NCBI GenBank assembly: GCA_027604185.1
Contig: JADGKB010000199.1
Span: 1-15,086 of the forward strand
Length of the DNA stretch: 15,086 bases
Direction of reading: 5' to 3'
DNA from: Boothiomyces macroporosus
Lineage: Eukaryota; Chytridiomycota; Chytridiomycetes; Rhizophydiales; Terramycetaceae
Part shown: positions 187 through 14,883 of the stretch, piece by piece
Layout of the letters: every line of letters starts with the position of its first letter
How positions within the stretch are numbered: position 1 is the stretch's first letter
Translations under genes and position numbers: made by a program
The notes under the pieces: model-generated
What the model saw: the letters and a program-made list of their open reading frames with translations, nothing else
Databases searched by the model: none
Told to the model about the DNA's origin: nothing

Positions 187-967
187 ATGGATTTAGACTC
201 TCAGTTTATAGCCAGCACAGTAGAATTTTGTGCGGCTGTATTGAATATAATCATTACTTTGGCTTATTATTGGAAGAAGGATTTGACGGTTATAAACTAC
301 TGGCATATACTATTTGGAATTGTGCTACTGTTCAACCAAGTAATTACAATGATAATGGAGTTTAATGGCCACACTACTGATTATTGCTTCATGTGGTATA
401 TACAAGTAAGTGCTGTTAATTTAGGGAATCACAAAAAACTTTGCTGAAGCAAATATAGACTGGATATTTACGTTAAGAGTTGTTTATCTAGAGCAGGGCA
501 GCTGGACTCGACATGTATGGGTTGGACTGTTTTTATTAATGGATGCGCTGCCCCGAATAGTCGTTCAATTCTATTACCAAACGTCAATTCAAAGTACAGG
601 AAAATGTCTTTTATCGCAACCGCAGTTACCCAGCCTATTAAAGACTGCTTTTGGCACAGTATATATTGGGGTAGTAGCCATATACTTTGCGATTCGAATA
701 GTTGGATTAATTCAGTCCTCAAACGGAGGGCTGGGTGTGCAGAGATTAGAATCCCTGACAGTAACTTCAATAGCGTTTGCATTGGCGTTGTGTTTAATTC
801 GAACATTAATTGGAATTCCATTTATCATGAATATCTGGCCCACAGTTACACCACTATTGATACCTATACAATTTACGATTTTACCTCCGATATGTTTCTT
901 GAGCATTGCCTATGGCAGCCGTTTAAAAGTAAACCTACTCCCAAAATTAAACAGCAGCAATGCATAA
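187..967 (+). CDS. Multi-pass (about 7 TM) membrane protein, 2 exons, family not recognised
   Basis: Exons 187-405 and 425-967 join in phase 0 across a 19-nt GT-AG intron to give about 253 residues, ending at tandem TAA codons. Without splicing, the first frame stops after 86 codons and the second has no upstream start. The protein is strongly hydrophobic. Candidate membrane segments start near residues 9, 37, 85, 110, 152, 190 and 220, roughly seven in all, with a WKKD loop after the first and only short loops elsewhere. I see no signature that assigns it to a GPCR, transporter or enzyme family, so the function is unknown. The start is the first ATG of the open frame, in an A-rich context. 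The splice is well supported because it joins two hydrophobic frames exactly and the intron matches the others in this window. Confidence 0.7.
406..424 (+). other. 19-nt spliceosomal intron
   Basis: GTAAGTGCTGTTAATTTAG, phase 0. It has a canonical GTAAGT donor, TTAAT at intron positions 11-15 and a TTTAG acceptor. Its removal joins the two hydrophobic frames of the membrane protein. Confidence 0.75.
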
Positions 968-1100
968 TAAATATATATTTTCACTAACCTATGATTCCAG
1001 ACTGAATGAAACCCTAACCATTTTCAATACATTCAATTAACATTGTTGAAATTGGATCTTTTAATAGTGAAATGGATGGGGTGGAAATATATCTTGACCC

Positions 1101-1955
1101 ATGCAAAGAAGCTTGCCAATAGATATTTGGGATAGAATATGGTTATTATGCGATCAAGACACATTGCAGAATACACGTAGGTTACAAAGTGAGTATGTAA
1201 AGAAAGTAACAGAATCTTTTGACATTGACACTGCAGTAAAACAAGGAAACTTGGAAAACATCAAATGGCTCAAAAATAATGGATATCAATTGGGCCAAGA
1301 TACTTTTTGTAATGCAGCTGAAAACGGAAATTTAGAGATTATAAAGTGGTTGAAAAGGAATAGATGTCCATGGGACAACTGCACATTTAGTTATGCAACA
1401 TTCAATGGAAACTTGACAAATATGAAGTGGTTATTTGAGAATGGGTGCCCGTGGGATCAGTCAACATTTAAAGAAGCAGTGAGAAATGGAAATCTGGATA
1501 ACATGAAATGGCTGAGAAAAGTGGGATGTCCCTGGGATGCAATTACATTTAGCTATGCAGCACTTGATGGAAATATGGAGAATATTCAGTGGTTAAGAGC
1601 AAATAATTGTCCCTGGGATGCAAATACATTTAACGGTGCGGCTAAAAACGGGAGTTTGGACGTAATGAAATGGCTAAAAGAGAACAACTGTCCATGGGAT
1701 ACCAACACATTTTGCTATGCAGCAAGGAACGGAAACTTGACAAATATGAAGTGGTTGTTTGAGAATGGGTGCCCGTGGGATCAGTCAACATTTAAAGAAG
1801 CAGTGAGAAATGGAAATCTGGATAATATGAAATGGCTGAGACAAGTTGGCTGTCCCTGGGATTATTTTACATTTAAAGAAGCGACAAGGAACGGTGATTT
1901 GGTAAACATAGAATGGCTCATGGAAAATGGATGTCCTCGGGATGATCAAACGTGA
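1101..1955 (+). CDS. F-box-like protein with 27-residue ankyrin-like repeats (copy 1)
   Basis: 284 residues, with a TGA just upstream in frame at 1095, so ATG 1101 is the likely start. Residues 5-35 (LPIDIWDRIWLL then LQNTRRLQSEYVKK) resemble a short F-box. From residue 49 there are eight full repeats and one cut one, of the form GNLxNMKWLxxNGCPWDxxTFxxAxxN. Each is exactly 27 residues rather than the 33 of a classical ankyrin repeat. Repeats of this W-L/C-P-W type are frequent in giant viruses and in protists that acquired them; the usual interpretation is a substrate adaptor for ubiquitin ligases, which is inference here. The protein stops in mid-repeat (GCPRDDQT), and repeat-like sequence seems to continue beyond the stop, so it may be truncated. 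A paralogue lies at 3942-5060 on the other strand. Confidence 0.8.
   Translation: MQRSLPIDIWDRIWLLCDQDTLQNTRRLQSEYVKKVTESFDIDTAVKQGNLENIKWLKNNGYQLGQDTFCNAAENGNLEIIKWLKRNRCPWDNCTFSYATFNGNLTNMKWLFENGCPWDQSTFKEAVRNGNLDNMKWLRKVGCPWDAITFSYAALDGNMENIQWLRANNCPWDANTFNGAAKNGSLDVMKWLKENNCPWDTNTFCYAARNGNLTNMKWLFENGCPWDQSTFKEAVRNGNLDNMKWLRQVGCPWDYFTFKEATRNGDLVNIEWLMENGCPRDDQT
1245..1952 (+). repeat. 81-nt coding tandem repeats (8 full plus 1 partial)
   Basis: The repeat part of the first F-box/repeat gene has a strict 81-nt (27-codon) period. A 132-nt block at 1407-1538 recurs at 1731-1862, offset by exactly four units (324 nt), with about five differences, four of them silent. Confidence 0.85.
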
Positions 1956-2372
1956 ATGTAACTAGAATTATATGGAAATCATTCAAAATCTCTGGGATCT
2001 TGGAGTGATGTACCATTGAATAGGCAGTTGTCCAAGATCACGTTGTTATATCCGAGTTTTCAGATGTATTTGCACCAAGAGCCAGCAAAATAAAATGGAT
2101 TTGGCGGATAAAGGAAAATAGACAGCAATCGTAAAAAGGGATTACCAATCATAATTCATTTGCGCCACCCTCGTGTTTCAGATTGTCCAATTATAGAAAC
2201 ATACGGTAGCAGCGGTAAATGCAATAATATAGCACAAGTGTAGTTTCAATTGGAATATTTTGTTCAACAATTATTAAAAGCCATTATTTCAGTCAAAGCC
2301 TTGTTCCATTGTGCTAGTGAAACAGGATAAGGATGTCGCCTTAAAATAGAAAAAAGTTCGCCAACTTCTACA
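1956..2372. other. Gene-free stretch with probable decayed repeat units at its left end
   Basis: No intact gene is seen. Just after the repeat gene's TGA, one frame reads MEIIQNLWDLG near 1975-2007. Another reads KIKWIWRIKEN near 2087-2119. Both resemble the repeat consensus LExIKWLKxNG and are interrupted by stops and frame changes. From about 2130 to 2372 I see nothing recognisable. Confidence 0.4.
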
Positions 2373-2481
2373 ATGGGAGGGAATGTTTCGACAGAAGATA
2401 TTCACAGACCCATAGAAAAGACAAACTGGATTCAACAAACGATAGCCAAATTACACCAGGAAGCCCGTACATTCGTTTCTA

Positions 2482-3735
2482 ATGGTAGATTTTAGGGAGG
2501 TGCAAATAATAGAAAAGTACAAGGACATTATTCAAAACCTGAGATTATCCCATCTTCACAAATTTCAAGTAATCGAAAATCAGTACCTTGGCGATTTGAA
2601 GAGGAACAACACCATTCTTGAACAAACCAAAGCCCAACTATTCAGAGAGAAAAAACAAGCAGTGATCAATCAATTGAAATACCAAGACGAACTTTGTCAA
2701 AAGAATGACAAGATTAAAGAGTTGGAAAGTCTGTTATTAAAAGAAAAAAGACAGTCTGCCCTCATCAAACCTCTTAATGAAGCCTGTGAGAGAATGTCTA
2801 GCACCATTGATGAACTACGAGACTTGTTGTGGAAAGAAAGGGCAAATAAAGACAAAGGTGTATGCAAAGCACAAGAACAAAATAGAATCCAGGCTTCTAT
2901 TGATCATTTACGGCAATGGAAAGGGCCAGCAGAAAAGAAAAGTGCAGATTCTCGATTTGTTCGTTTCAATGAATTAAATATTGCTGCTGGATGCCATTAT
3001 ATCAATACACGTAAACCAACACACACACTGACTTACAAGATATTGGAACGAAAGAATCCAATTAATCAATTGGCGGGAGGAACATTTACTTGCACAAATC
3101 ACAGTCAAAAGGTTGTTTGGAACAGTGCGCAGATTATAATTCAGTTACATTTCACAAACGACTATGAATTTTGTGTCAAGGTGCTGAATCAACAATGTGA
3201 AAAGTGTAGGTGCTATACTGCTCCAAAATTAGACCATGCAATCTACCTACGGAGAGTTGCAGGTTGCCTAGAACGGGCTTTTGAACTAGGAAAACAGACC
3301 GAAATGATTACCATGTCAAACATTCCTGTTACCGTTAATCAAGAAGATATTCCAATAGCAAAAAAACTTACTCAGGAAGCACTACTTCACCAAAGACTAA
3401 AAGATGGAGAAATTGAAAGTATAATCGGCTGCAAAGCGAAACTAGTGGCAGAAAACTGGCAGGTAACTCCAGGATATCCCCAAAATGGAGAGGGAGATTT
3501 GGTATTTCTGTGCAAGAGTGGAGTATACCATGTGGTAGAAGTTAAATGGATTAACTATTCAAATGGCATAGCAGTGGGTGGTTCAGCAAAGAAGATAAAC
3601 AAAGTCAAGATGCAAGCACAAACTTATGGAAGAGCGTGGAAGATTAGAGTCCGGAAATTCAAAGTTAGGTGTTATGCTGTAATTAATAATACCGACAACC
3701 AGTTTACCACCGTTGATTCCCATTTAATAAAGTAG
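2482..3735 (+). CDS. Coiled-coil / 3CxxC-like zinc finger / PD-(D/E)XK nuclease-like protein
   Basis: 417 residues from ATG 2482, ending TAG then TAA. Residues about 10-145 are Lys/Glu/Gln-rich with heptad-like leucines and probably form a coiled coil. Residues 199-245 (GGTFTCTNH, VVWNSAQI, VLNQQCEKC, CRCY) match the layout of 3CxxC-type zinc-binding domains (the RTP/zf-3CxxC family), with His replacing the second Cys of the first pair. The C-terminal part has GEGDL (D339), then VVEVK (E353, K355), then QAQTY (Q378, Y382). This is the D...ExK core plus the QxxxY motif of RecB/Cas4-like PD-(D/E)XK nucleases, so a nucleic-acid-cutting role is inferred, not shown. A longer N-terminus from ATG 2373 is possible through a 28-nt GT-AG intron at 2485-2512, giving 444 residues. 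The gene lies between two inverted repeat-protein genes. Confidence 0.7.
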   Translation: MVDFREVQIIEKYKDIIQNLRLSHLHKFQVIENQYLGDLKRNNTILEQTKAQLFREKKQAVINQLKYQDELCQKNDKIKELESLLLKEKRQSALIKPLNEACERMSSTIDELRDLLWKERANKDKGVCKAQEQNRIQASIDHLRQWKGPAEKKSADSRFVRFNELNIAAGCHYINTRKPTHTLTYKILERKNPINQLAGGTFTCTNHSQKVVWNSAQIIIQLHFTNDYEFCVKVLNQQCEKCRCYTAPKLDHAIYLRRVAGCLERAFELGKQTEMITMSNIPVTVNQEDIPIAKKLTQEALLHQRLKDGEIESIIGCKAKLVAENWQVTPGYPQNGEGDLVFLCKSGVYHVVEVKWINYSNGIAVGGSAKKINKVKMQAQTYGRAWKIRVRKFKVRCYAVINNTDNQFTTVDSHLIK

Positions 3736-3941
3736 TAACTAGTCTTTTTATTGGAATATAGTTTGATCACAACACGAAAGAATGAAACCTAAAGATACGA
3801 AAGAGCAAGTCGTTAATAGTGTTAAATATTTATCGTTGAATTATGATCTAGTTAATGTTTGATTGCTCAAATGGTGTTAATCTTGGGATAACTCTACTGA
3901 ATTAAGCAATGCCACGAAACACTAATCGTCAATGAATTAGT
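3736..3941. other. Intergenic, 3' ends of two convergent genes
   Basis: 206 nt between the TAG of the nuclease-like gene and the TAA of the minus-strand repeat gene. It is AT-rich, with no gene or structured element that I can support. Confidence 0.5.
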
Positions 3942-5060
3942 TTATTTGTCATCTTTTAGATTTTGTTGAAGCCATTCCAAGATATCCATTTGGGCACTAC
4001 ATTCGAAAATACTTTTATCCCACGGACAATTATTGACCTTTAGCCATTTTATATTTTCCAAATTTTCATTGTATATTGCACTATTAAATGTGGTTTGATC
4101 CCAAGGACAGCTATTTTCCAACAACCATTGCATGATTTGTAGATTTCCAATACTTGCTGCAACACTAAATAAATCATTGCCCCAGGGACACCCATTCGCC
4201 CAAAGCCATTTCATGGATTCCAAATCATTATTCCTCACCGCTTCAGAAAAAGTATATTCGTCCCAGGGACAGCCATTTTCCAACAACCATTTCATTATTT
4301 CCCAGTTTCCAGATTTGAATGCTTCACTGAATGTCCAGTCACTCCATGGACAACCATTCTCTTTTAGCCATATTAAATTCTCCAAATTTCCAAAATTTAC
4401 TGCAGTCCTAAACGTTCCTTCACCCCAAGGGCAACCATGGTCTTTTAACCACTTTATATTCTCCAAATTACCCTTGTGCGCAGCACCACTAAAGGTACCC
4501 ATATCCCAGGGACATCCATTCTGTTTCAACCATTTCATATTCTCTAAATTCCCTGTTTTTGCAGCACTTTTGAATATTCCCTCACCCCAAGGACATCCAT
4601 TCTCTTTTAACCACTTCATATTCTCCAGGTTTCCATTTCTAGCCGCGCTTTTGAACGTTCTTTCACTCCATGGACAATTGTTTGATTTTAGCCATTTCAT
4701 ATTCTCCAAGTTGCCATTATATGCAGCGTCAGTAAACGTCCATTCATCCCAAGGACAGCCATTGATCAGTAACCATTCCATATTTTCCAACCTTCCGAAT
4801 CCTGCCGCATTTCTAAAAGTGTAATCATCCCAGACGTAACTTCTCTGCTTTAACCATTTCATATTCTCTAAATTCCCTTGTTCTGCTGCTTCTGCAAAAG
4901 TAAAATATTTGGTGGATTTCTTTACATGATTGCTTTGCAATTCCCTAGTGTTTTCCAAAGTCTCTTGATCACACCGCAACCAGATTGTGTCCCAGATTTC
5001 ACTCGGTAAACCATTTGTTTTTATAGTGGATAGTGAAGGGTTAGGTTGAGAAGAATCCAT
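3942..5060 (-). CDS. F-box-like protein with 27-residue ankyrin-like repeats (copy 2)
   Basis: 372 residues, uninterrupted, ATG at 5060 and TAA at 3942-3944. Residues 17-50 (GLPSEIWDTIWLRCDQETLE and the following helix) are clearly homologous to the N-terminus of the other repeat gene and resemble an F-box. From residue 62 there are eleven full 27-residue repeats with consensus GNLENMKWLKxNGCPWDxxTFxxAAxN. A short cap (DILEWLQQNLKDDK) closes the array, so this copy looks complete. The likely role is a protein-binding adaptor, by analogy with F-box/ankyrin proteins of giant viruses and protists; the partner is unknown. The open frame on the opposite strand (4132-4824) is a mirror of the repeats. 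The gene is divergent from the glycosyltransferase gene to its right. Confidence 0.85.
   Translation of the reverse strand: MDSSQPNPSLSTIKTNGLPSEIWDTIWLRCDQETLENTRELQSNHVKKSTKYFTFAEAAEQGNLENMKWLKQRSYVWDDYTFRNAAGFGRLENMEWLLINGCPWDEWTFTDAAYNGNLENMKWLKSNNCPWSERTFKSAARNGNLENMKWLKENGCPWGEGIFKSAAKTGNLENMKWLKQNGCPWDMGTFSGAAHKGNLENIKWLKDHGCPWGEGTFRTAVNFGNLENLIWLKENGCPWSDWTFSEAFKSGNWEIMKWLLENGCPWDEYTFSEAVRNNDLESMKWLWANGCPWGNDLFSVAASIGNLQIMQWLLENSCPWDQTTFNSAIYNENLENIKWLKVNNCPWDKSIFECSAQMDILEWLQQNLKDDK
3987..4877 (-). repeat. Eleven 81-nt coding tandem repeats
   Basis: A strict 27-codon period with invariant or near-invariant Trp-Leu and Cys-Pro-Trp. Units differ from each other far more than the duplicated block in the first repeat gene, so this array looks older and stably maintained. 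Confidence 0.85.
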
Positions 5061-5130
5061 TGCATTGAAACTAAAATATTTTTGGGAAAGGATGGTGTCT
5101 GTGTCACATATATCTTGTGATTCTGACTAG

Positions 5131-6359
5131 AAGGTCATTACTAGTAGGTGGCCGTCGTCTCTTGGCACGAATGTAAAATCGTTGCGTATCGTATCGTTTC
5201 GTATTGTCAAGAAATAGTAACCAGACCGAGACTATCGATCCTTTTACAAATGTTTGGGAAAACAAAACGTGTTTGAAAATACAAAGAGATCATGCTATTT
5301 TGAGAACTTGTGCTATGATACTATCGAGCAAGAATTTCAGTTTTACCAGCCTTCTAGTGAACCAATATTCTATGATCGGGAACAAGGGCCAATTTATGAG
5401 TTTATTGAACCGTTTGTCGATCTTGGAGCACCCAATTTTACTCCAAAAGTAGTAGTTGGAGATTTGGATATGAATAATACTGCTATTTCTACAATCAGGA
5501 CTGTCTTATGGGATCACTCGGATAGCCTTACTATTGAGCACCTCATCTATGAACAGCTTGTCGGTACTTTTATCACTTTGGAAAGGTTTGGAGCAAGAGA
5601 TAATGATACCCAATTGTTGCACCTGTAGATCTGATTAACATAGGCGAAACTCTGATGACCCGGATTTCATCAAACACACTACTACTTTTGGTAGAGCCAT
5701 CACCACAAGACCACTAAAAGGAATGCATGACTACATTAAAGAAATAGGAAAGGAAAATCGGCACGTTTGTTTCAAAGAGCTGATTGTTTCCAGTCCTTCA
5801 ACAGTTTATAATGAATACAGTGATGTATACAAGGAAGGACGAGAAGTAATTTGGGAAAAGTTCAGGGAAAGATTATTTAAAACTCTTGGAATTAAACAAA
5901 TTGAGCCATTAAAAAATGTACTGTTCATACGAGACACCAACATTACTAACTATAATGAAACTATCCACTATTTACAATCAAGGTTCAACGAATTTAACTT
6001 TACTTTGGCTGATATTGGCAACCACTCTATTGAGGAGCAACTGGAGTTGGTATCAAAGTACTCTATTATAGTTGGATCACAATTGGTACCGTTTATGCAT
6101 CAAAAAAGCTGCGCAATCATTCCAGACACGATATTACGAAACTATGAAGAGTAAGAATGATTAACCTAGTGATCACGTCGGGTTAAAGTACTTTTGGAAT
6201 TACTTTACAGTTCGAAAGCTGTACTACCAAATGATTGATGACAAGTTTGACTTTGAACGAATAGAGCATCTTTTTCATACCGCTATAACCGAATTGGAGA
6301 TTAGCACGCAGGATGGAAATACCCTGAATCTTGCAGATGAAAAGCGTAACGTCCACTAG
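5131..6359 (+). CDS. GT61-like (DUF563) glycosyltransferase, spliced, 5' end unresolved
   Basis: Proposed coding exons 5131-5200, 5225-5624, 5644-6150 and 6170-6359 sum to 1167 nt (388 residues, TAG stop). All three introns are 19-24 nt and have TAAC before AG. Features typical of GT61 enzymes are a CYFENLCYD motif near the N-terminus, an IEHLIYEQLV region, LKNVLFIRDTNITNYNE (the R...N segment), SIEEQLELVSKYSIIVGSQL (the 'eQ...vG' segment), and SCAIIPDT. GT61 proteins transfer xylose, GlcNAc or similar sugars in the secretory pathway; the donor cannot be told from sequence here. No ATG lies in frame in the first exon. A start at 5092-5094 followed at once by a 36-nt intron (5095-5130) would fit but is speculative, and 5' truncation is the alternative. 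No signal anchor is visible. Confidence 0.6.
5201..5224 (+). other. 24-nt candidate intron
   Basis: GTATTG donor (also used in two other introns here) and a GTAACCAG 3' end. Removing it deletes an in-frame TAA at 5218 and extends the glycosyltransferase frame upstream to 5131. Less certain than the introns forced by homology on both sides. Confidence 0.55.
5625..5643 (+). other. 19-nt spliceosomal intron
   Basis: GTAGATCTGATTAACATAG, phase 2, with TTAAC at positions 11-15. It joins LLHL to RNSDDPDF in the glycosyltransferase; unspliced, the frame stops at TAG 5626. Confidence 0.75.
6151..6169 (+). other. 19-nt spliceosomal intron
   Basis: GTAAGAATGATTAACCTAG, phase 2, with TTAAC at positions 11-15. 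It joins LRNYE to DHVGLKYFW and adds 62 codons to the glycosyltransferase, replacing an in-frame TAA. Confidence 0.75.
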
Positions 6360-6630
6360 AACAGTTTCAGTATTGCTTCACGTGGAAATAATAAACTCTT
6401 GATCAATCGAATTACTGTTTACGCGTTTTTGCAGTTTAATATGAGTTGGAACGTTACAAGATTGATTATAGTGTAGATTTAATCCTTTTTGAATATTTTA
6501 TGGAAGAATACAAAATTATCTGTTGAATGAAAAATATATCCCAATGAATTTATCTTTCGGCCGATATTAGATATTAACGCCACATTTATGCATAAGATAT
6601 GGATGCATAATTCAAAATTCTACACCTTCA
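6360..6630. other. Intergenic, probable H+-ATPase promoter region
   Basis: 271 nt of AT-rich sequence. It holds two TGCATAA copies (about 6587-6610) shortly before the ATPase start, and nothing else I can support. A regulatory role for the copies is unproven. Confidence 0.3.
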
Positions 6631-9366
6631 ATGTCAGATAATGAAATCGACCCTGATTTAGAGTCACTATTGCATACTGATATCCATCGTGGATTATCAA
6701 ATAAAGAAGTTGGCAAAAGAACTGAGCGATTTGGACTGAACGGTAATCCAAAAGTAACCAAGAATTGCCAGAAAAAAAGACTAACCGCTGGATGAAATTC
6801 ATTAAATATTTCCTTGGGCCAATAGCATATTTACTAGAAATTGCTGCGGTACTGGCAGCGGTTTTAGAAAACTGGATAGACTTTGGGATTTTACTGTTTG
6901 TGCTATTTGGTAACGCTTTTATTGCGTTTTACCAAGAAGCAAAAGCAGACAGTGCCCTCGAATCACTCAAAAATACTTTGGCGTTGAAATCCAGAGTGAT
7001 CCGAAGCGAATTTGTTGAAATTGATTCCAAATACCTTGTGCCTGGTGATGTGATTGCTTTGCGTAGAGGCGATATTGTTCCCGCTGACTGTAGATTGACT
7101 GGATACGATGTCTCACATCAACCTACAACCAACAATTTGCATCTTGATGAATCTGCCTTAACCGGAGAATCCTTACCAGTGTCGAAAGGAAAAGATGCTA
7201 TTGTTTACTCTTCCTCTATTGTGAAATTAGGTAGCATGCTAGGTGTAGTTGTAAAAACAGGCAGGCATACTTTTATAGGAAGAGCAGCTAATCTCATTTC
7301 AATAACCAGCACTGAAGGTCAATTTCAAAGGGTGATGAGGAATATCGGCAACTTTTTGATTGGAATTTCACTGACTCTTGCCTTAATTATATTTGTTGAT
7401 TCTTTGGTAGTTCGGCATGATTCTATCTTGTTTTCTTTGAAAAGAACGGTGATAATCACGATAGCGTCAATTCCAATTGGCTTACCGGCAGTAATGTCTG
7501 TTACAATGGCTGTTGGAGCGACTGAATTGGCTAAAAAGAAAGTCATTATCAAACGGCTTACTGCAATTGAAGAATTGGCTGCTGTAGATATTTTATGCTC
7601 TGATAAGACTGGAACGCTCACTAAAAATAAGCTCTCGTTTGACGAACCATACTTGGCATTCAAAGGAAATACACCAGATAACCCAAAAGGAACTGGCGAG
7701 CAATACACGAAGCACGAATTACTATCTTTTGGATATCTGGCCTCCGAAAACGATTCTCACGATCCAATTGAGGATGCTGTTTGTAAAGCAGCAAAAAAAG
7801 AGTTGCCAGATTTGAAGGATTCAACTGATATTGCTGGATTCAAGATTATCGATTTCACCCCATTCAATTCCACATCAAAATTTACAAAATCTACGATAGA
7901 AACAGAAAATGGTGATAGATATTCTGTAATCAAAGGAGCTCCCCAAGTAGTTATCAAAAAGTGTGGAGAAAGTCCAATTTTTGAACGTGTAGTGGATCAG
8001 TTTGCAGCAAGAGGGCTAAGAGCACTTGGGGTTGCTAGATCCCAGTCATCAAATGATCAAGAACCCGATTCGAACAGAGTAAGTATTTTTAACCCAGAAT
8101 GACAAGCAAGCAGCATTTGAACTTGTAGGATTCATTTCTCTTTTAGATCCGCCAAGGCCAGATTCAGCTCAAACGATTAAAGAGTGCAATTCACTTGGTA
8201 TTCAAATTAAAATGATTACTGGGGATCAGTTGATTGTTGCAAAAGAAGTTGCGTATCGACTGGGAATGAATCGCACTATTCTAGACGCTCTGAAATTGGT
8301 TGATAGAGAACTATCAGAAGAGCAGTTGACAAGGTTGTGCGAAAAAGGGGATGGATTTGCGCATGTAATACCCGAACACAAGTACCGAGTGGTTGAATTG
8401 CTGCAGCGCAGTGGACATTTCGTCGGAATGACTGGAGATGGTGTAAACGATGCACCAGCATTGAAAAAAGCAAATGTTGGGATTGCTGTTCAAGGGTGTA
8501 CAGATGCAGCTAGAGCAGCTGCCGATATTGTCTTGTTGGCTGAGGGACTTTCGACAATTATTGATGGTGTCAAATGTTCCAGAGAAATCTTTCAAAGAAT
8601 GCATACATATGCCCTCTTTCGAATATCGGCAACTATGCAATTCATTCTATTCTTTTTCATTTCAATCATTGCTTTCAATTTTGCACTTCCGGATCGTCTG
8701 ATATTGTTGATTGCCATAATGAATGACGCTGCAGCGCTAGTTATCTCTATTGATAACGCTTATATATCCTCAACACCAGCAAAATGGAGAATCGGTCAGC
8801 TTTTGATTTTATCACTGGTCCAGGGAAGTTTGTTGATGGGCTATTCGTTTGCTCATTTGTTTCTCGCAAGGTACTTTTACCCATTTAGCTCTCCCCAAGA
8901 CTACAACTATAAAGTTGTTCAAACAATCATGTACCTAAACATCTCGTCATCCCCCAACTTTTTCATATTTTCGACAAGAATGCAAACTTGGTTGTGGAAA
9001 GGGAGACCATCGTGGATTTTTATTGTTGCAATTCTTGGAACACAATTCATAGCGGTCATTATTACTCTAGTCGGTCCAAAAGTGTTTGATGCAGTACCAA
9101 TCAGTCCAGCATGGGCTTTTGGAGTGTATTTTGATTCCATGTTGTTTGTTTTGGTGCTCGATTGTGTAAAAGTATTTGTGATAAAGTATTGGTCGTTCAA
9201 AGTGGTAGCCAGATGCTGGCCAACAAAGGCAAACAAGAAAAAGTTGAGAGAACAACAAGAAAAGGAAAAATTCAATGGGCGGCTAAAAGTGTATCACAAG
9301 AAGCTTCGAAAAGTAATGCTGGTAATTTCGGCAATTGGCGCGTTTAGGGAAAATAAATCGCACTGA
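6631..9366 (+). CDS. P-type (P3A) plasma-membrane H+-ATPase, 3 exons
   Basis: Exons 6631-6742, 6763-8078 and 8098-9366 give about 898 residues, the usual length for P3A proton pumps. ATP hydrolysis drives proton export and sets plasma-membrane potential. Visible motifs are GLNELPEKKTNRW before M1, TGES (171-174, actuator), SIPIGLPAV (274-282, M4), DKTGT (318-322, the phosphorylated Asp), KGAP (428-431), DPPRPD, MITGDQ and TGDGVNDAP (588-596). In M5-M6 there is an Arg in FRISATMQ and IAIMNDAAALVISIDN; the ND aspartate (about 686) corresponds to the proton-carrying Asp of plant pumps. Both introns are forced by homology: N|ELPEKK and SNR|NDKQAAF. The C-terminal tail is short and basic, without a recognisable autoinhibitory region. 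The gene converges on the oxidoreductase gene with only 8 nt between the coding ends. Confidence 0.93.
6743..6762 (+). other. 20-nt spliceosomal intron
   Basis: GTAATCCAAAAGTAACCAAG, phase 1, with GTAAC five nt from the end. Removal restores the family motif GLNELPEKKTN in the H+-ATPase. Confidence 0.88.
8079..8097 (+). other. 19-nt spliceosomal intron
   Basis: GTAAGTATTTTTAACCCAG, phase 0, with TTAAC at positions 11-15. Removal joins the nucleotide-binding domain to the conserved LVGFISLLDPPRPD region of the H+-ATPase. Confidence 0.9.
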
Positions 9367-9374
9367 AATCATTT

Positions 9375-11099
9375 TTAAAGTGAAAAGTTTTCGTATTTGA
9401 TATTCTGTGCTGGGATTGTTGCTGATACCCATTCTTTATATTTTCCATGTATACATTTGGACCGCAAACATACACCACTGCATTGTCTAGGTCAATTAAA
9501 GACATGTCTGTTTCTTCAATCCTTCTACTTTGGATATTGAGGTCTTGATCACTGCCTTGAAATGTCGAGTCAAACACTAGGGTCTTTACTTTGAAGTCTT
9601 TGAGCAATAGCGCTTCGTCACCTCTGCAGCTAAATACCAGCGTCACTCTTGACCGCATATTTGGATCGAGGGAGTTGTACATTGACATGAATGGAGTAAT
9701 CCCAACACCAGCAGCAAACCAAACCATTTTTTGAGGAACATCAGGGAAGCAACTGAACTCTCCTCCAAACCCTTTCAGATAAATCCCATCAAGAACTGGC
9801 TGTTTCAATGAATGCAGGAATCTGCTGATTCTTCCAGCAAGTTTCACGGTAACTGAAAATTGTTTCTTTTGTTTATCGAAATGAGAAACAGTCCATGTTC
9901 TAATTGAATCATCATTGACAAGCTTGGGATTGGCATTGTTCATGTGCTGATACTGGTGAATGAAAATGTGTGAAAAGTCAATAATACCGTACGATCCTGG
10001 AACGCACGATTGGTCATTTAGTGAGGAAGGATACGTAAATGTAAATGTTGAAATCTTGGAAGACAGCTTTTCAATTTTCACTAGAGATATTGGAGTACCG
10101 CTTTCAAAAATTTCGGTAGCTTTCATTTCGTTTCGAAGAAGTCTAATGGGAGGGTTATATGGAGAAAGCACTTCATTGCCCACCAAACAAAGATTAAGCC
10201 CGCCTTTGATCAGTATTGCTTTTTGAATTTCTATAATAGTGATAAGTGACATTCGCGGCATGATTGAATCGGCTTCTTTTCCAAAAACATTTCTCGCAGA
10301 TCCAGTTACATGGAGCATGTCTCCAGTTTCAAAATCAGGAATAACTAGTCCAGCAGCTCCATCAGACTGAATATTTCCAAGCGACTGAAAAAATCTATTT
10401 CCACTATAGTCTGGCAGGACAATCTTCCCAACATCCTTGTCTTTGTAATACCGCATAAACCCTCTGGCACCACCACGATGATTAAACCCTAGTGTTAAAC
10501 GAACCAATACCAAGATCACACTCTGAAGAATCGCCAACCATGTGCTTTGTCACCATGAACATGGTACTGCTCTTGTTTATAAGCGACTGGGCTTCCATAT
10601 TTAATCGATCCATAATAACCGGTTCCCCTGCCTTGCGTTCACAGTATTCGAGGTTTCGGACAGTAATGTACTTTGGACAATTTCCCATATTTTCATCCGC
10701 TTGCAATATAAGAGTAAGAATTCTGTCGGCAAACACTGCAGAGAGAATCTTGCCATTTACTTTGTTTCTTCTTTGATTAGTAAAGTCAACACCCACTGCT
10801 GCAAAGTACTGGCTGCCAAGAACCGCGTTCAAGAATGGATCCTTTTCGTTGATTGAGCACTGGATTTGCATGTTTACTTTTGATAGAATCTTGACGACAG
10901 GATTTACCAAAATGCTTGCCCAAAGCGTACCATCCTTATCAATTGCTCCAAAAGGAAAATAGAGCAGGTTTGCAAAGAAATCAGCGTGTTGCTTTGGAAT
11001 TTCGTCGGAAATATACCACGACGGATTTGCTTCATTCACTGATATTCCTCTTAGCTGCTGGACTGCTACTTCTCCAGAGTGCTGGTTGGTATTTTTCAT
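9375..11099 (-). CDS. PNPOx-like split barrel fused to FAD/NAD(P)H oxidoreductase (FNR type)
   Basis: Start ATG 11099 (MKNTNQHSGEVAVQ); exon 11099-10511, a 22-nt intron, then exon 10488 onward. The N-terminal third has features of the pyridoxamine-phosphate-oxidase-like FMN-binding split barrel: HSGEVAVQ, FGAIDKDGTLWASIL, FNHRGGARGF (197-206) and LPDYSGNRFFQSLGNI. The C-terminal half is a ferredoxin-reductase module with RTWTVS (393-398, FAD), AGVGITP (456-462, NAD(P)H) and VYVCGPN (536-541). No 2Fe-2S domain follows. Such fusions are known as oxidoreductases of uncertain substrate in bacteria and fungi. The 3' end is ambiguous. The open frame runs on to TAA 9344-9346 with an unfamily-like tail. 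A shift near 9410-9430 gives QNIKYENFSL and TAA at 9375-9377, the expected FNR ending. Confidence 0.82.
10489..10510 (-). other. 22-nt spliceosomal intron
   Basis: GTATTG donor, TTTAACACTAG 3' end, phase 1. Removal joins SECDL to GFNHRGGARGF, restoring the continuous split-barrel motif; unspliced, the frame stops soon after. Confidence 0.85.
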
Positions 11100-11577
11100 T
11101 GATATTGTAAACGTCAATTTGGAGCTTTAAATGAATCTATTTTTCCGTCTTTTTATCCACCATCTACGTTTTTCCGCGTAATTTTACCGCAACAGATGGA
11201 AAGGCAACTCTATTTGTGACTCTGCTACTTTGGTAAAAGATTCGAATGTGATTGTTTTTAACACTTGAGTAAGCTCAACACGAGATATCCAATAGAATAG
11301 AAATATTTGTACAGAGAGAGTAGATGAATCTTATTGGAAAATCAAAGAACAGCAAATGCTGACATTAAACATTACCTTTGCACATTAACCTACTCGGCTT
11401 TCGGAAATTTAAAAGTAGCCCGGTACTATTACTCGAATCTTTAAGGATATACCAACTTGGCTGTATGTATCTTTAGTGGGGGGTTTCAAAGAACTGGTAC
11501 AAAGTCTTAAAAAGAAGCACAGCACACCAATTGAGGCTTGTAAAAGATAAATAGCCGAAAGAATAGAACTGTAATTA
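11100..11577. other. Divergent intergenic region
   Basis: 478 nt between the starts of the minus-strand oxidoreductase and the plus-strand membrane protein, so it should hold both promoters. It is AT-rich, with one GGGGGG run near 11477. I see no open gene, tRNA or clear repeat. Confidence 0.4.
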
Positions 11578-12354
11578 ATGGAAACATATCAACTTGAACT
11601 CCAACCCTCCAATGCCGAGCAGCAGGTGCCAAAGAAAGACAATGTTACTCAGCAAACCAAAGACAAACTAGACTCCTTAATATGGGACTATATTCCAATG
11701 GAAGATGTTTTGGACTTGAAGAGGCGTGTTGGAAACATTGTAAAGGCTTCAAAGGAAAACTGTATGTATATTCTCGTTCTTTTTGCTATATACTTGTTTC
11801 TAATTGCTCTTGTTGCAGGTGTGGGTGCCCTTTTGGGAACTATTGGATCTGCCTGTGTATCCTCACTTCATCATGCAAATGTAAATGAAGCTGTCAAAGT
11901 TGGCAGTTTAGCTGGGGCAACTGCTGCAGTGGTCAGTATTCATGCTACTTTTGCAACGATTGTAGTCTGGAATCTGATATTCAGGTTATCCATGGTGATA
12001 TTCAAAGAAGGATGGTTGCAGTTAATTGTTCAAATTCTGGTTCTACTTGCAATATGGCTCAATTCAATAGTTGTTTCTAGTATAGCTGGTGCAGCAGCAA
12101 GTTGGGTTACAGGAAATAGCATGTCACATGGATTCATCGCTGGAGCAGTAGCTGGCTCTTTTGAATTTGTTGCTGATGGGTTTAAAGAAAACGCAAAACA
12201 GAACCAGCAGCCCAATCCATGGCTGTTAATCATGAATATTCGTATTCTTGGCGGATTAAGTGCTGCAGCTGCAACCACAAATGATTTAGCTGGTGGTACA
12301 TTGCTGGGACTTTGGAGTTCAGGTGTTCTAGCGGGAATTAACTTTAATAAATGA
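11578..12354 (+). CDS. Gly/Ala-rich multi-pass membrane protein, family not recognised
   Basis: 258 residues from ATG 11578 to TGA 12352-12354. A charged, glutamine-rich N-terminus of about 60 residues (ELQPSNAEQQ, DVLDLKRRV) is followed by membrane segments. These start near residues 62, 105, 122, 143, 165 and 215. Small-residue spacings that favour helix packing recur: GALLGTIGS, GSLAGATAA, GFIAGAVAGS and LAGGTLLGLWSSGVLAG. The pattern recalls glycine-zipper membrane proteins, but I recognise no family. The frame is open throughout and needs no intron. Its stop lies inside the open frame of the following chitinase-like gene, a 23-nt overlap, so either a rearrangement joined the two or they form one unusually spliced gene. 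Confidence 0.65.
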   Translation: METYQLELQPSNAEQQVPKKDNVTQQTKDKLDSLIWDYIPMEDVLDLKRRVGNIVKASKENCMYILVLFAIYLFLIALVAGVGALLGTIGSACVSSLHHANVNEAVKVGSLAGATAAVVSIHATFATIVVWNLIFRLSMVIFKEGWLQLIVQILVLLAIWLNSIVVSSIAGAAASWVTGNSMSHGFIAGAVAGSFEFVADGFKENAKQNQQPNPWLLIMNIRILGGLSAAAATTNDLAGGTLLGLWSSGVLAGINFNK

Positions 12355-14883
12355 GACAAACATTGATAATTTAACACTTATCCTGTATCTAAACAAATTG
12401 GACGGCATAGATTTCGATTGGGAATATCCAACTGCCTCAGACCGACATGGTAGTGCAGCTGACGCACAAAACTACGTTCTTCTTCTACAGGAATTGAGAC
12501 AACTAGTGGGAAGCAGATACTCAATTTCAGTTGCAGCTCCTGCATCGTATTGGTATCTCAAGGGATTTGATATTGCACAAATGGCAAATTATTTGGACTA
12601 TATCGTTTATATGACATATGATATGCACGGCAATTGGGATTATGCAAATCAATACACTGGCCCGTTCCTTAATGTACACAATAATTTCACAGAAATTGTT
12701 CAAGCTATCAGTATGATTGAAAAGGCTGGTGTTCCAAGCAACAAGATATTGATGGGCTTTGGGTATTACGGAAGATCATTTAAACTTCAATCCTCGTCAT
12801 GTACTTCTGCAGGTATTGTTCAAATTAATGACTAGGGATATGTTTCTTTGATGACCCAGGATCGATGGTTGTTATCGGTAGCGAACTTCAATTTCCAAAT
12901 ACTGCGTTGGCGGGTATGTGCACGAAAACTGGGGGATATCTGGCCGATTTTGAAATCAAGGACATAATTAATCGCCAAGGAGTAACACCTCGACTTGATG
13001 GTCCGTCGCTTTCCAAGATTTTAGTGTACAATAACGGAAGAGATTGGATTGGGTACGATGACGCTCAAACGATTGGTACAAAGGTAATTTTTCTTTAAGA
13101 AAAGACAAATGTTGCTTCAGGAATGTGTTTGGGGGGTACAGCCATCTGGTCAATCGACCAAAGTTGGGATTTTAATATTGTTTCCGTTCCAGTTTGTGGT
13201 AAACATTCAAAAATCAATTTGAACAACCAATGTGAATGTGATGCAGATTTTGCACTTTTAAATGGAAATTGTTATTATACAAAATGCCAGCCTAATTCAA
13301 ATTGGGACAGCAATCAAGATGCCTGTGTTTGCAACCCGGGATTCCAAGGACCAAATTGCACTGCAATTCCACCCCCAACATGTCCACCTCATGCATCAGT
13401 GAATATCTTTAATGTGTGCGTTTGTGATCAAGATTTTGAACTTCAAAATGGTGTATGTGTGTACACGAAATGTCAACCAAATTCCCATTGGGTTAATGAA
13501 AACTGTGTCTGTATGGATGGTTTCGAAGGATCAGATTGTCATCCAGTATGTCAAAAGGGATATGCATGGAATGGAAATACATGCTCTCTAATCATGGTGC
13601 TGGATCCTGTTTGTATTCCAGGTCAAAGCTGCGTTATGATTCCTCCTGGTCCACTACCTATCACATTTACATTTCCATTTAGCGTTCCTGGTCTTCCAAT
13701 CCCATTGGTTATTTCGTCAATTCCTTTCAACATCAATTTACCTGGTCTGCCTCCAATTAGTGTAACTGGGGAATCTGAAAACGACAAGGACAATGAGAAA
13801 CCTAGCAAATGGGACAAACCAGTGTTTGTAAAATGCTTGAATGATGATCCAGACGTTGGATTTGGGATGCAAATATCTGCTAATTTACTTTATCCTCCAA
13901 AAGACAAATCTAGATGGGATCCAACATGTAAATTACTGGGATTGACTATTGCTCAAACAGAAGTTTATGCAAATACTTGTTCTGATACTACTACCACGGT
14001 AGTGGGGACTTTTAAATTAGACTTTTTGGATACTTTGGATTTTCCAGAGGCAATGGCATGCTACATGGCAGAAGAGGATCTGCATGATGTTGCACCAGCT
14101 TGTCCGTCACCATCCTCAAATATAGGAAAAGTATATCAATTTTGATTATAGACTAAAATACAAGTTTCAGAAAGGAAGCGATGCAAAATCCCACAAGAAA
14201 CTCAAAATCAAATCACTCCATTCTTTTGGACATATGAAAATGTTAGAAAAGAACTGAGGGCAATGCTTACTTACACATCTGTACCATCCCCAGAAAGGTA
14301 TGCAGACGTACTTCATCGCAACTATACATTTGACGCGGATGCTTATAATATGCAGTATCCGTCAACTCCGTATAAAGAAACAGGAAAGGAAGATGCAAAA
14401 CCTGCACAAATCCCATTTATATTGAGAAACTTTGCATTCAGAGCACTCAATATAGAAAAAGATGGAATTGGGACGACAACCATCAAACCAAAAAAACCAA
14501 AAAAATCATATGTAGAGTTAGAACATGTTGCAAAAACAAACGGTTTTACACAATTTATTTCAGTCACATCAGATATGGATTTTGCAAGAAGAGCCGCAAT
14601 GCGAAAAGTATTGGAAAGAAAACGTAAGGGTATCATAACAATTCCTTTTGTAATGCTGTCTTTGGATGGCTTGTCTTATACAAATTTGAACGACTTTAAA
14701 AATATTTCTCAATGCAAATTGGATTATAGGACAGTTTTGCAGACTAGACAAAATGTAAACCCAGAAGAAAAGGACCAAATGGAAGTACAAAAGGTTTGGG
14801 ATACATTCCATGGATGGGCAACAAAGTCATCGGAAGCGCTGGTGAGAAATAATATTCCAGCAGTAAAAATTGTATTAAACTAG
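12332..14883 (+). CDS. GH18 chitinase (N-terminally incomplete) with EGF-like repeats and long C-terminal extension
   Basis: Open segments 12332-12812, 12836-13083, 13105-14130 and 14152-14883 splice to 2487 nt in one frame, ending in TAG. The catalytic motif LDGIDFDWEYP (DxxDxDxE complete) is at about 12398-12430. It is followed by YIVYMTYDMHGNWD, GFGYYGRSF, DWIGYDDAQTI and GGTAIWSIDQ, so barrel strands 4 to 8 are present and chitin or related glycan hydrolysis is expected of the family. Strands 1-3, including the SxGG motif, are missing and there is no ATG before the catalytic motif. The gene is therefore 5'-truncated, rearranged or has an exon I cannot see. After GH18 come two 62-residue Cys-rich EGF-like units (13195-13560), a Pro-rich linker (PGLPIPLV, PGLPPISVTG) and about 400 residues I do not recognise. 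Secretion is likely from the domains, but no signal peptide is visible. Confidence 0.72.
12813..12835 (+). other. 23-nt spliceosomal intron
   Basis: GTATTG donor, TTAATGACTAG 3' end, phase 1. It joins SSCTSAG to ICFFDDPG in the chitinase, preserving the Cys pattern of this loop; unspliced, a TAG stops the frame. Confidence 0.75.
13084..13104 (+). other. 21-nt spliceosomal intron
   Basis: GTAATT donor, T-rich centre, AAAAG 3' end, phase 0. It removes an in-frame TAA and joins DAQTIGTK to TNVASGMCLGGTAIWSID, as expected for GH18. It lacks a TTAAY motif. Confidence 0.8.
13195..13566 (+). repeat. Two tandem EGF-like units, 186-nt period
   Basis: Unit 1 (13195-13380) and unit 2 (13381 to about 13560) share C..H......N.C.CD.DF.L.NG.C.YTKCQPNS.W....CVC..GF.G..C. 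The offset is exactly 62 codons. A further short Cys pair follows (CQKGYAWNGNTC). Confidence 0.8.
14131..14151 (+). other. 21-nt spliceosomal intron
   Basis: GTATAT donor, GATTATAG 3' end, phase 0. It removes an in-frame TGA (14143) and joins SPSSNIGK to TKIQVSERK, linking the chitinase to the following 243-codon open frame. It lacks TTAAY, and no known domain spans the junction, so it is less certain than the others. Confidence 0.6.

Follow-up and report, generated by a model that had tools for sequence, protein, structure and literature searches.

Probable introns of about 20 nt with GT-AG borders and a branch-like motif in the genome of the chytrid Boothiomyces macroporosus

Boothiomyces macroporosus is a free-living chytrid fungus of the Rhizophydiales (Terramycetaceae), and the DNA analyzed here, which we refer to as the window, is one entire contig of its genome assembly (C199, 15,086 nt; the assembly comprises 15,203,306 b in 216 contigs). 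Five genes of the window are interrupted by GT...AG segments of 19–23 nt that are very probably spliceosomal introns. On the forward strand, a small gene of two exons (187..967) is formed by open reading frames (ORFs) at 187–447 and 425–967 joined by a 19-nt intron, GTAAGTGCTGTTAATTTAG, at 406..424; a glycosyltransferase-61-like gene has 19-nt introns at 5625..5643 and 6151..6169; a P-type H+-ATPase gene (gene model 6631..9366, Pfam PF00122, with chytrid proteins as its best named matches) has a 20-nt intron at 6743..6762 and a 19-nt intron at 8079..8097; and a GH18 chitinase gene has introns of 23, 21 and 21 nt at 12813..12835, 13084..13104 and 14131..14151. On the reverse strand, a 22-nt intron at 10489..10510 joins ORFs 10482–11126 and 9344–10549 of an NAD-binding oxidoreductase gene.

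All nine introns were found by a gene model for which 20 other regions of the genome served as training set, with the window held out and intron length limited to 30 nt. Gains over the best parse lacking the intron in question were 6.3 nats for the intron at 406, 7.3 and 7.9 nats for those at 5625 and 6151, 9.8 and 7.5 nats for the two H+-ATPase introns, 4.6 nats for the oxidoreductase intron and 5.1, 4.7 and 17.4 nats for the chitinase introns in order. A flat model, which admits introns of 15–30 nt with no knowledge of splice sites or lengths, retained four of the nine on its best path (5625, 6743, 8079 and 14131); the introns at 406, 6151, 10489, 12813 and 13084 lie outside that path and therefore rest on the genome-wide model. 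A sequence-only reading of the window had proposed ten introns of 19–24 nt, and nine of these occur once each in the window with the lengths it gave; the tenth, of 24 nt, is unconfirmed, as the early part of the glycosyltransferase gene has a single GT..AG segment of that length (5201–5224), and no model picked it. Its observation that TTAAY occupies positions 11–15 in all four 19-nt introns is borne out by the sequence; TAAT or TAAC lies near the end of seven of the nine introns, the exceptions being those at 13084 and 14131.

We sampled the rest of the genome through 20 stretches of 10 kb, taken from the 20 largest contigs, which together with the window amount to 215 kb or 1.4% of the genome; the counts below refer to this sample. 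Codon usage was trained on those ORFs of the sample that reach 300 codons or more, 45 in all, and the resulting codon model was given a single rule for introns, namely GT...AG borders at a distance of 10–120 nt with a flat length distribution, while six control dinucleotide pairs were scored identically. This model called 169 GT-AG introns, of which 103 measured 18–25 nt with a mode at 20 nt, whereas the control pairs yielded 126–144 introns in total and only 10–27 in the same length bin. Under two further penalties the bin held 125 GT-AG introns against 15–35 for the controls, and 66 against 4–18. When introns were counted only if they change the reading frame or contain an in-frame stop, the flat 15–30 nt model gave 141, 125 of them at 19–23 nt (16, 50, 31, 24 and 4 at 19, 20, 21, 22 and 23 nt, respectively). 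A trained model limited to 30 nt called 362 introns in 115 genes, and 336 remained after the 26 that neither shift the frame nor hold a stop were dropped; extrapolation of this number suggests more than 20,000 introns in the genome, a rough figure given that it comes from 1.4% of it. When 30 other border pairs were admitted alongside GT-AG, they received 4–20 calls each at 18–24 nt versus 95–126 for GT-AG. AT-AG received most (20), TA-AG had 18, AA-AG 17, GT-TT 16 and GT-TG 11, and we rejected other border dinucleotides as a class because no clear second class emerged among the 30 pairs. Introns of about 15–25 nt are the dominant class in the sampled sequence.

One may postulate that these short introns are a single class standing beside normal, longer introns that the models missed. 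The 30-nt limit of the trained models leaves room for such a class, and when the limit was raised to 400 nt, 74 of 422 introns fell outside 16–25 nt (348 inside); these 74 were scattered, without a peak. In the codon model, with its flat prior up to 120 nt, the order of GT-AG and controls was reversed at 26–120 nt, where 56 GT-AG introns compare with 96–115 for the six control pairs, and because GT-AG falls below its controls we see no sign of a longer intron class. Alignments to proteins also bear on this question. They were made with our own protein-to-DNA aligner, which is blind to splice sites in that a gap may start and end at any letters and take any length of at least 10 nt. Aligned to the RuvBL2 proteins of Terramyces and Globomyces, the RuvBL2 gene at locus L017 shows internal gaps of 21, 20, 21, 23 and 20 nt, all five of which resolve to GT..AG within four bases. 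The two proteins disagree at the N-terminus, where gaps of 68 and 67 nt (Terramyces) stand against 18 and 22 nt (Globomyces), the 22-nt one with GT..TG borders, and with Kappamyces RuvBL2 as query the last gap is 132 nt. Queried with proteins from Globomyces, Boothiomyces JEL0838 and Batrachochytrium salamandrivorans, an acyl-CoA dehydrogenase gene at locus L011 has gaps at seven places, with lengths of 21, 22, 20, 24, 21, 21 and 21 nt; each resolves to GT..AG by a shift of no more than three bases, and extra, poorly matched gaps occur at the N-terminus. The long gaps near protein ends (67, 68 and 132 nt in RuvBL2, and 92–137 nt in several dehydrogenase alignments) count in favor of a second class; we read them as errors in the deposited proteins. 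The central parts of both genes, on which the species agree, show only gaps of 20–24 nt, apart from one of 92 nt that stems from the deposited B. macroporosus model. Taken together, we consider a hidden class of longer introns unlikely.

For the H+-ATPase gene, homology across the joints had been proposed to force both introns, and the alignments covered both. Against two chytrid proteins, the intron at 6743–6762 appears as a 20-nt gap placed one base away from, and co-optimal with, the GT..AG position; the intron at 8079 appears only within a 52-nt gap, which suggests an unconserved loop of 33 nt plus the 19-nt intron. One query (P0005) gave further downstream gaps of 12, 32 and 112 nt that the other (P0004) did not, and these were left uncounted. 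Alignment of H+-ATPase proteins to seven other P-type ATPase loci, made on the plus strand only, was uninformative, as these loci belong to other subfamilies.

The nearest well-placed named relatives of the H+-ATPase, RuvBL2 and dehydrogenase proteins are found in Terramyces, Boothiomyces, Globomyces and Kappamyces. In the RuvBL2 tree the protein of this genome is sister to Terramyces (support 98/94), and in the H+-ATPase tree the window protein groups with Terramyces and Boothiomyces (100/98) on a long branch of 1.15. Since the protein matches point to Rhizophydiales, sanchytrids were dropped as a possible source of the DNA. Two odd RuvBL2 records, labelled Quercus and Ixodes, rank above the chytrids at 71–75% identity; the first in the list, P0121 (RuvB-like 2, labelled Quercus suber), has a duplicated C-terminal half, which may explain its rank.

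The deposited proteins themselves carry traces of short introns. The deposited B. macroporosus dehydrogenase (HK103_003824) can be aligned to the L011 DNA with no indel codons and implies five introns of 20–22 nt; the same model merges a 20-nt intron, a 24-nt intron and the 16-residue exon between them into one 92-nt intron, and translates a further intron of 21 nt. In Terramyces, RuvBL2 has seven extra residues at intron 1, as would result from translation of a 21-nt GT..AG segment, and at intron 2 lacks a stretch of 15 residues that is conserved in the other aligned proteins covering that intron; the Terramyces dehydrogenase likewise has seven extra residues at intron 1, as from a translated segment of 21–24 nt. 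In Kappamyces, RuvBL2 acquires a foreign tail exactly at the last intron of the L017 gene, and all 25 residues of this tail are compatible with the conserved continuation if 28 bases were retained and reading went on in a different frame; this holds for two of the three continuations tried, whereas 200 shuffled tails reached at most 5. Because the Terramyces and Kappamyces proteins show segments of about 21–28 nt at shared positions, the trait probably predates the species: short introns at shared positions but of differing lengths would be older than B. macroporosus, as judged from four proteins rather than from DNA.

These comparisons speak against an explanation in which indels from sequencing or assembly, or frameshifts in pseudogenes, mimic introns. 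At least one gene of the window does look damaged or incomplete, as the chitinase lacks its N-terminal part (profile match from 94 of 317). Errors of this kind would not be expected to share GT, AG, a single length peak and a single branch geometry over hundreds of cases, nor to recur at the same positions in relatives' deposited proteins for two genes. In addition, fragment P0001, from a separate assembly and 99% identical, gives the same peptide through the 8079 segment. We regard this explanation as scarcely credible.

The anatomy of the introns was studied in 127 introns of 18–24 nt from the flat set, using a motif search. The branch motif is YTAAY, with T in 97%, A in 74%, A in 99% and C or T in 91% of introns at its second to fifth positions. 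Its second A precedes the last base by 5–6 nt in 99 of the 127 and lies at position 14–16 from the donor in 108, and TAAY is present in 87 introns compared to a mean of 29.9 in shuffled interiors. Length differences among introns are split between both sides of the motif, so that it shifts slightly relative to either end; as its position shifts with intron length, the motif is kept within a few bases of both ends and fixed to neither. Donors are GTAATT-like (+3 A 88%, +4 A 60%, +5 T 46% with G at only 19%, and +6 T 57%), and the AT content of the introns is 71%. Ciliate-type internal eliminated sequences were rejected as an identity for the segments, given that the borders are GT...AG and not TA.

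The genome also encodes recognizable splicing machinery. A U1 small nuclear RNA (snRNA) starts with AUACUUACCUG, two U2 snRNA genes carry GUGUAGUA, and a U6 snRNA carries ACAGAGA; the two U2 genes (L029 and L030) have diverged from each other, with an identical branch-recognition region. The GT...AG borders and a YTAAY motif complementary to this U2 sequence are both hallmarks of U2-type introns. Once spliced in silico, a U2AF65-like protein matches a solved U2AF65 structure (E ~1e-61) and an SF1-like protein a solved SF1 (E ~3e-80); the two genes have introns of their own, of 19, 20, 19 and 19 nt and of 24, 22 and 21 nt, and the matched ranges span six of the seven intron joints. Slu7 (E 2.6e-44) and Prp18 (E 2.3e-50) are present. 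The search for U2, U6, SF1 and U2AF components that the sequence-only reading had called for thus recovered all four. No match to U12 snRNA was found in the genome, in a search that gave none in any control genome either. The profiles RED_N and RED_C were likewise unmatched both here and in every control genome, which leaves the absence of RED unproved, and we dropped RED as an enabling factor on the result of this search, which had no positive control. Human spliceosomes require Smu1 and RED where the distance from donor to branch is short (PMC6692369), and SPF45 takes the place of U2AF on short human introns whose pyrimidine tract is truncated (PMC8363638); SPF45 is still a candidate factor here.

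Lengths, borders and motif geometry are direct readings of the DNA, as is the presence of the factors named above, and they fit best with spliceosomal introns of the ordinary U2 type (GT-AG) that have shrunk to some 20 nt across the nuclear genome, a reading that we hold with high confidence. That these segments are removed from RNA, which base is the branch nucleotide and in what order recognition proceeds is what we infer. In the scheme we propose, U1 would pair with the first, GTAATT-like bases of the intron and YTAAY with the standard branch-recognition sequence of U2, the second A being the putative branch nucleotide. A branch 14–16 nt from the donor would give a lariat loop of about 14–16 nt, and the AG 5–6 nt past the branch would serve as the acceptor, an arrangement in which no polypyrimidine tract would fit between the two. 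The usual footprints of SF1 and U2AF65 hardly fit into an intron of about 20 nt together with U1, and recognition is for this reason probably sequential, or else U2AF would act mainly through protein contacts. The sequence-only reading had called such a spliceosome mechanistically unusual; those snRNAs and factors that were open to testing have a canonical appearance, and the unusual part is rather the substrate.

An alternative scenario is that the segments are kept in the mRNA and bypassed during translation, or are cut out by a non-spliceosomal excision of RNA or DNA, after the manner of ciliate eliminated sequences or of XBP1. Some bypassed or excised elements are of similar size, and genomic DNA and proteins alone cannot separate such processes from splicing. 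GT..AG ends, a YTAAY motif matching U2, and genes for U1, U2, U6, SF1, U2AF65, Slu7 and Prp18 are nevertheless what removal by the spliceosome predicts, and the segment borders are not TA. We therefore judge bypassing or excision to be very improbable.

Several observations weigh against the reading as shrunken spliceosomal introns, and it should be interpreted with these in mind. The case is built on genomic DNA and proteins. TAAY is lacking in 40 of the 127 introns. The U1 match scores 68.8 bits, just below the cut-off of 69.5, the U2AF65 exon matches in raw DNA fall below the family cut-off, and U5 snRNA was undetected in the genome search; if splicing occurs, the last is surely a miss of the search. 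The peptide of P0001 reads through the 8079 segment up to the next stop, as is expected of DNA or of unspliced RNA. The trained model also overcalls, having taken for an intron a 21-nt GT..AG stretch of RuvBL2 that is yet conserved coding sequence, and introns whose length is a multiple of three are for this reason the least safe part of the counts. The stretch in question, GTAATTAATTCCCGCAGTCAG in the L017 gene, encodes VINSRSQ, which is conserved in relatives, and it mimics a 21-nt intron. Finally, a 22-nt intron of RuvBL2 has TG in place of AG at its end. This is intron 2 of the L017 gene (minus strand, within 5401–7400), defined by homology as GTAAGATTTATTTTAATCTCTG, with GT..TG borders and the usual branch geometry; the deposited Terramyces RuvBL2 likewise fails at its position.

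Other features of the window can be noted briefly. The ORF at 425–967 has no Pfam match, and the product of the small gene at 187..967 has a membrane-type appearance by eye. A Zn_ribbon_3CxxC protein is encoded at 2446–3735, with a C-terminal part that resembles, by eye only, a nuclease domain of the restriction-endonuclease type; its gene may hold a 22-nt intron at 2467..2488 on the forward strand, a weak call (gain 1.8 nats) that formed no part of the earlier proposal. Two ankyrin-repeat genes, at 1101–1955 (forward) and 3942–5060 (reverse), have no called introns and carry highly regular NGCPWD-type repeats. The open frame of the chitinase (11578–12835) overlaps the end of an upstream ORF, and with its match beginning at position 94 of the GH18 profile the gene may be truncated, a fusion or lacking exons.

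This analysis supports the sequence-only reading, namely that the segments are spliceosomal introns of extreme shortness that carry a branch-like motif in a genome with the standard code, although the lineages it named as examples (a nucleomorph, heterotrich ciliates and Paramecium) do not apply, the host being a chytrid. The known cases listed in PMC10245619 come from ciliates, from reduced parasites and from the relic nucleus of an alga. The introns of chlorarachniophyte nucleomorphs (18–21 nt, more than 800 in ~300 genes; PMC10245619) have nearly the same length range and narrowness, but they belong to a relic nucleus within an alga, whereas those described here lie in the main genome of a fungus and are far more numerous, with 336 in 215 kb. 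Those of mikrocytids (16–17 nt, 224 in 179 genes; PMC10245619) also form a narrow, very short class, in a parasite whose introns are few and whose spliceosome is reduced, whereas the present genome is intron-rich and every tested protein factor except RED was found. Stentor coeruleus resembles B. macroporosus in its standard code, major-spliceosome U-snRNAs, SF1 and U2AF2, a branch A that lies 5 nt from the final base and AT-rich introns; it differs in that its introns are 15–16 nt, with the branch A at position 10–11, and occur in only 18% of genes (PMC9505925). Slu7, Prp18 and Cdc40 are given as not found in the table for that species (PMC9505925), and a Stentor-like loss of Slu7 and Prp18 was rejected here since both are present. 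Paramecium and Nyctotherus share an intron-rich genome with short introns only (~25 nt, PMC5014332; more than 90,000 in Paramecium, PMC10245619), but are ciliates with somewhat longer introns. Human introns that depend on Smu1/RED or on SPF45 have a similarly short donor–branch distance or truncated pyrimidine tract; they are longer than those described here (the model intron of the SPF45 study has 56 nt, PMC8363638), and RED was undetected in this genome.

In the literature covered, consisting of open-access papers such that subscription journals are mostly outside it, we found no introns this short reported for a chytrid or any other fungus. The main text of a survey of 590 species (PMC11649378) contains neither the word chytrid nor Batrachochytrium, and no Batrachochytrium intron lengths were found in the portion of PMC5364385 considered. 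The depositors' protein models already imply some short introns, so that the data are public and the phenomenon seems to have passed unremarked.

These introns are among the shortest known, and they make a chytrid a test case for the lower limit of intron size. Minimum intron size is a question of spliceosome geometry, as separate parts must hold donor, branch and acceptor, and a chytrid with thousands of introns of about 20 nt and the tested core factors would uncouple intron size from reduction of the spliceosome, in a system that would stand near the fungal model spliceosomes; it also predicts that the gene catalogues of relatives need re-annotation. A broader proposal is that nearly the whole nuclear set, some 20,000 introns, collapsed to 19–23 nt before Boothiomyces and Terramyces separated, and perhaps before Kappamyces did so, with an unreduced spliceosome and without RED; we see the case for this as evenly poised. 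Were it true, no intron-rich system of this kind would have preceded it among fungi, and many of the short introns would be wrongly rendered in the group's public gene models.

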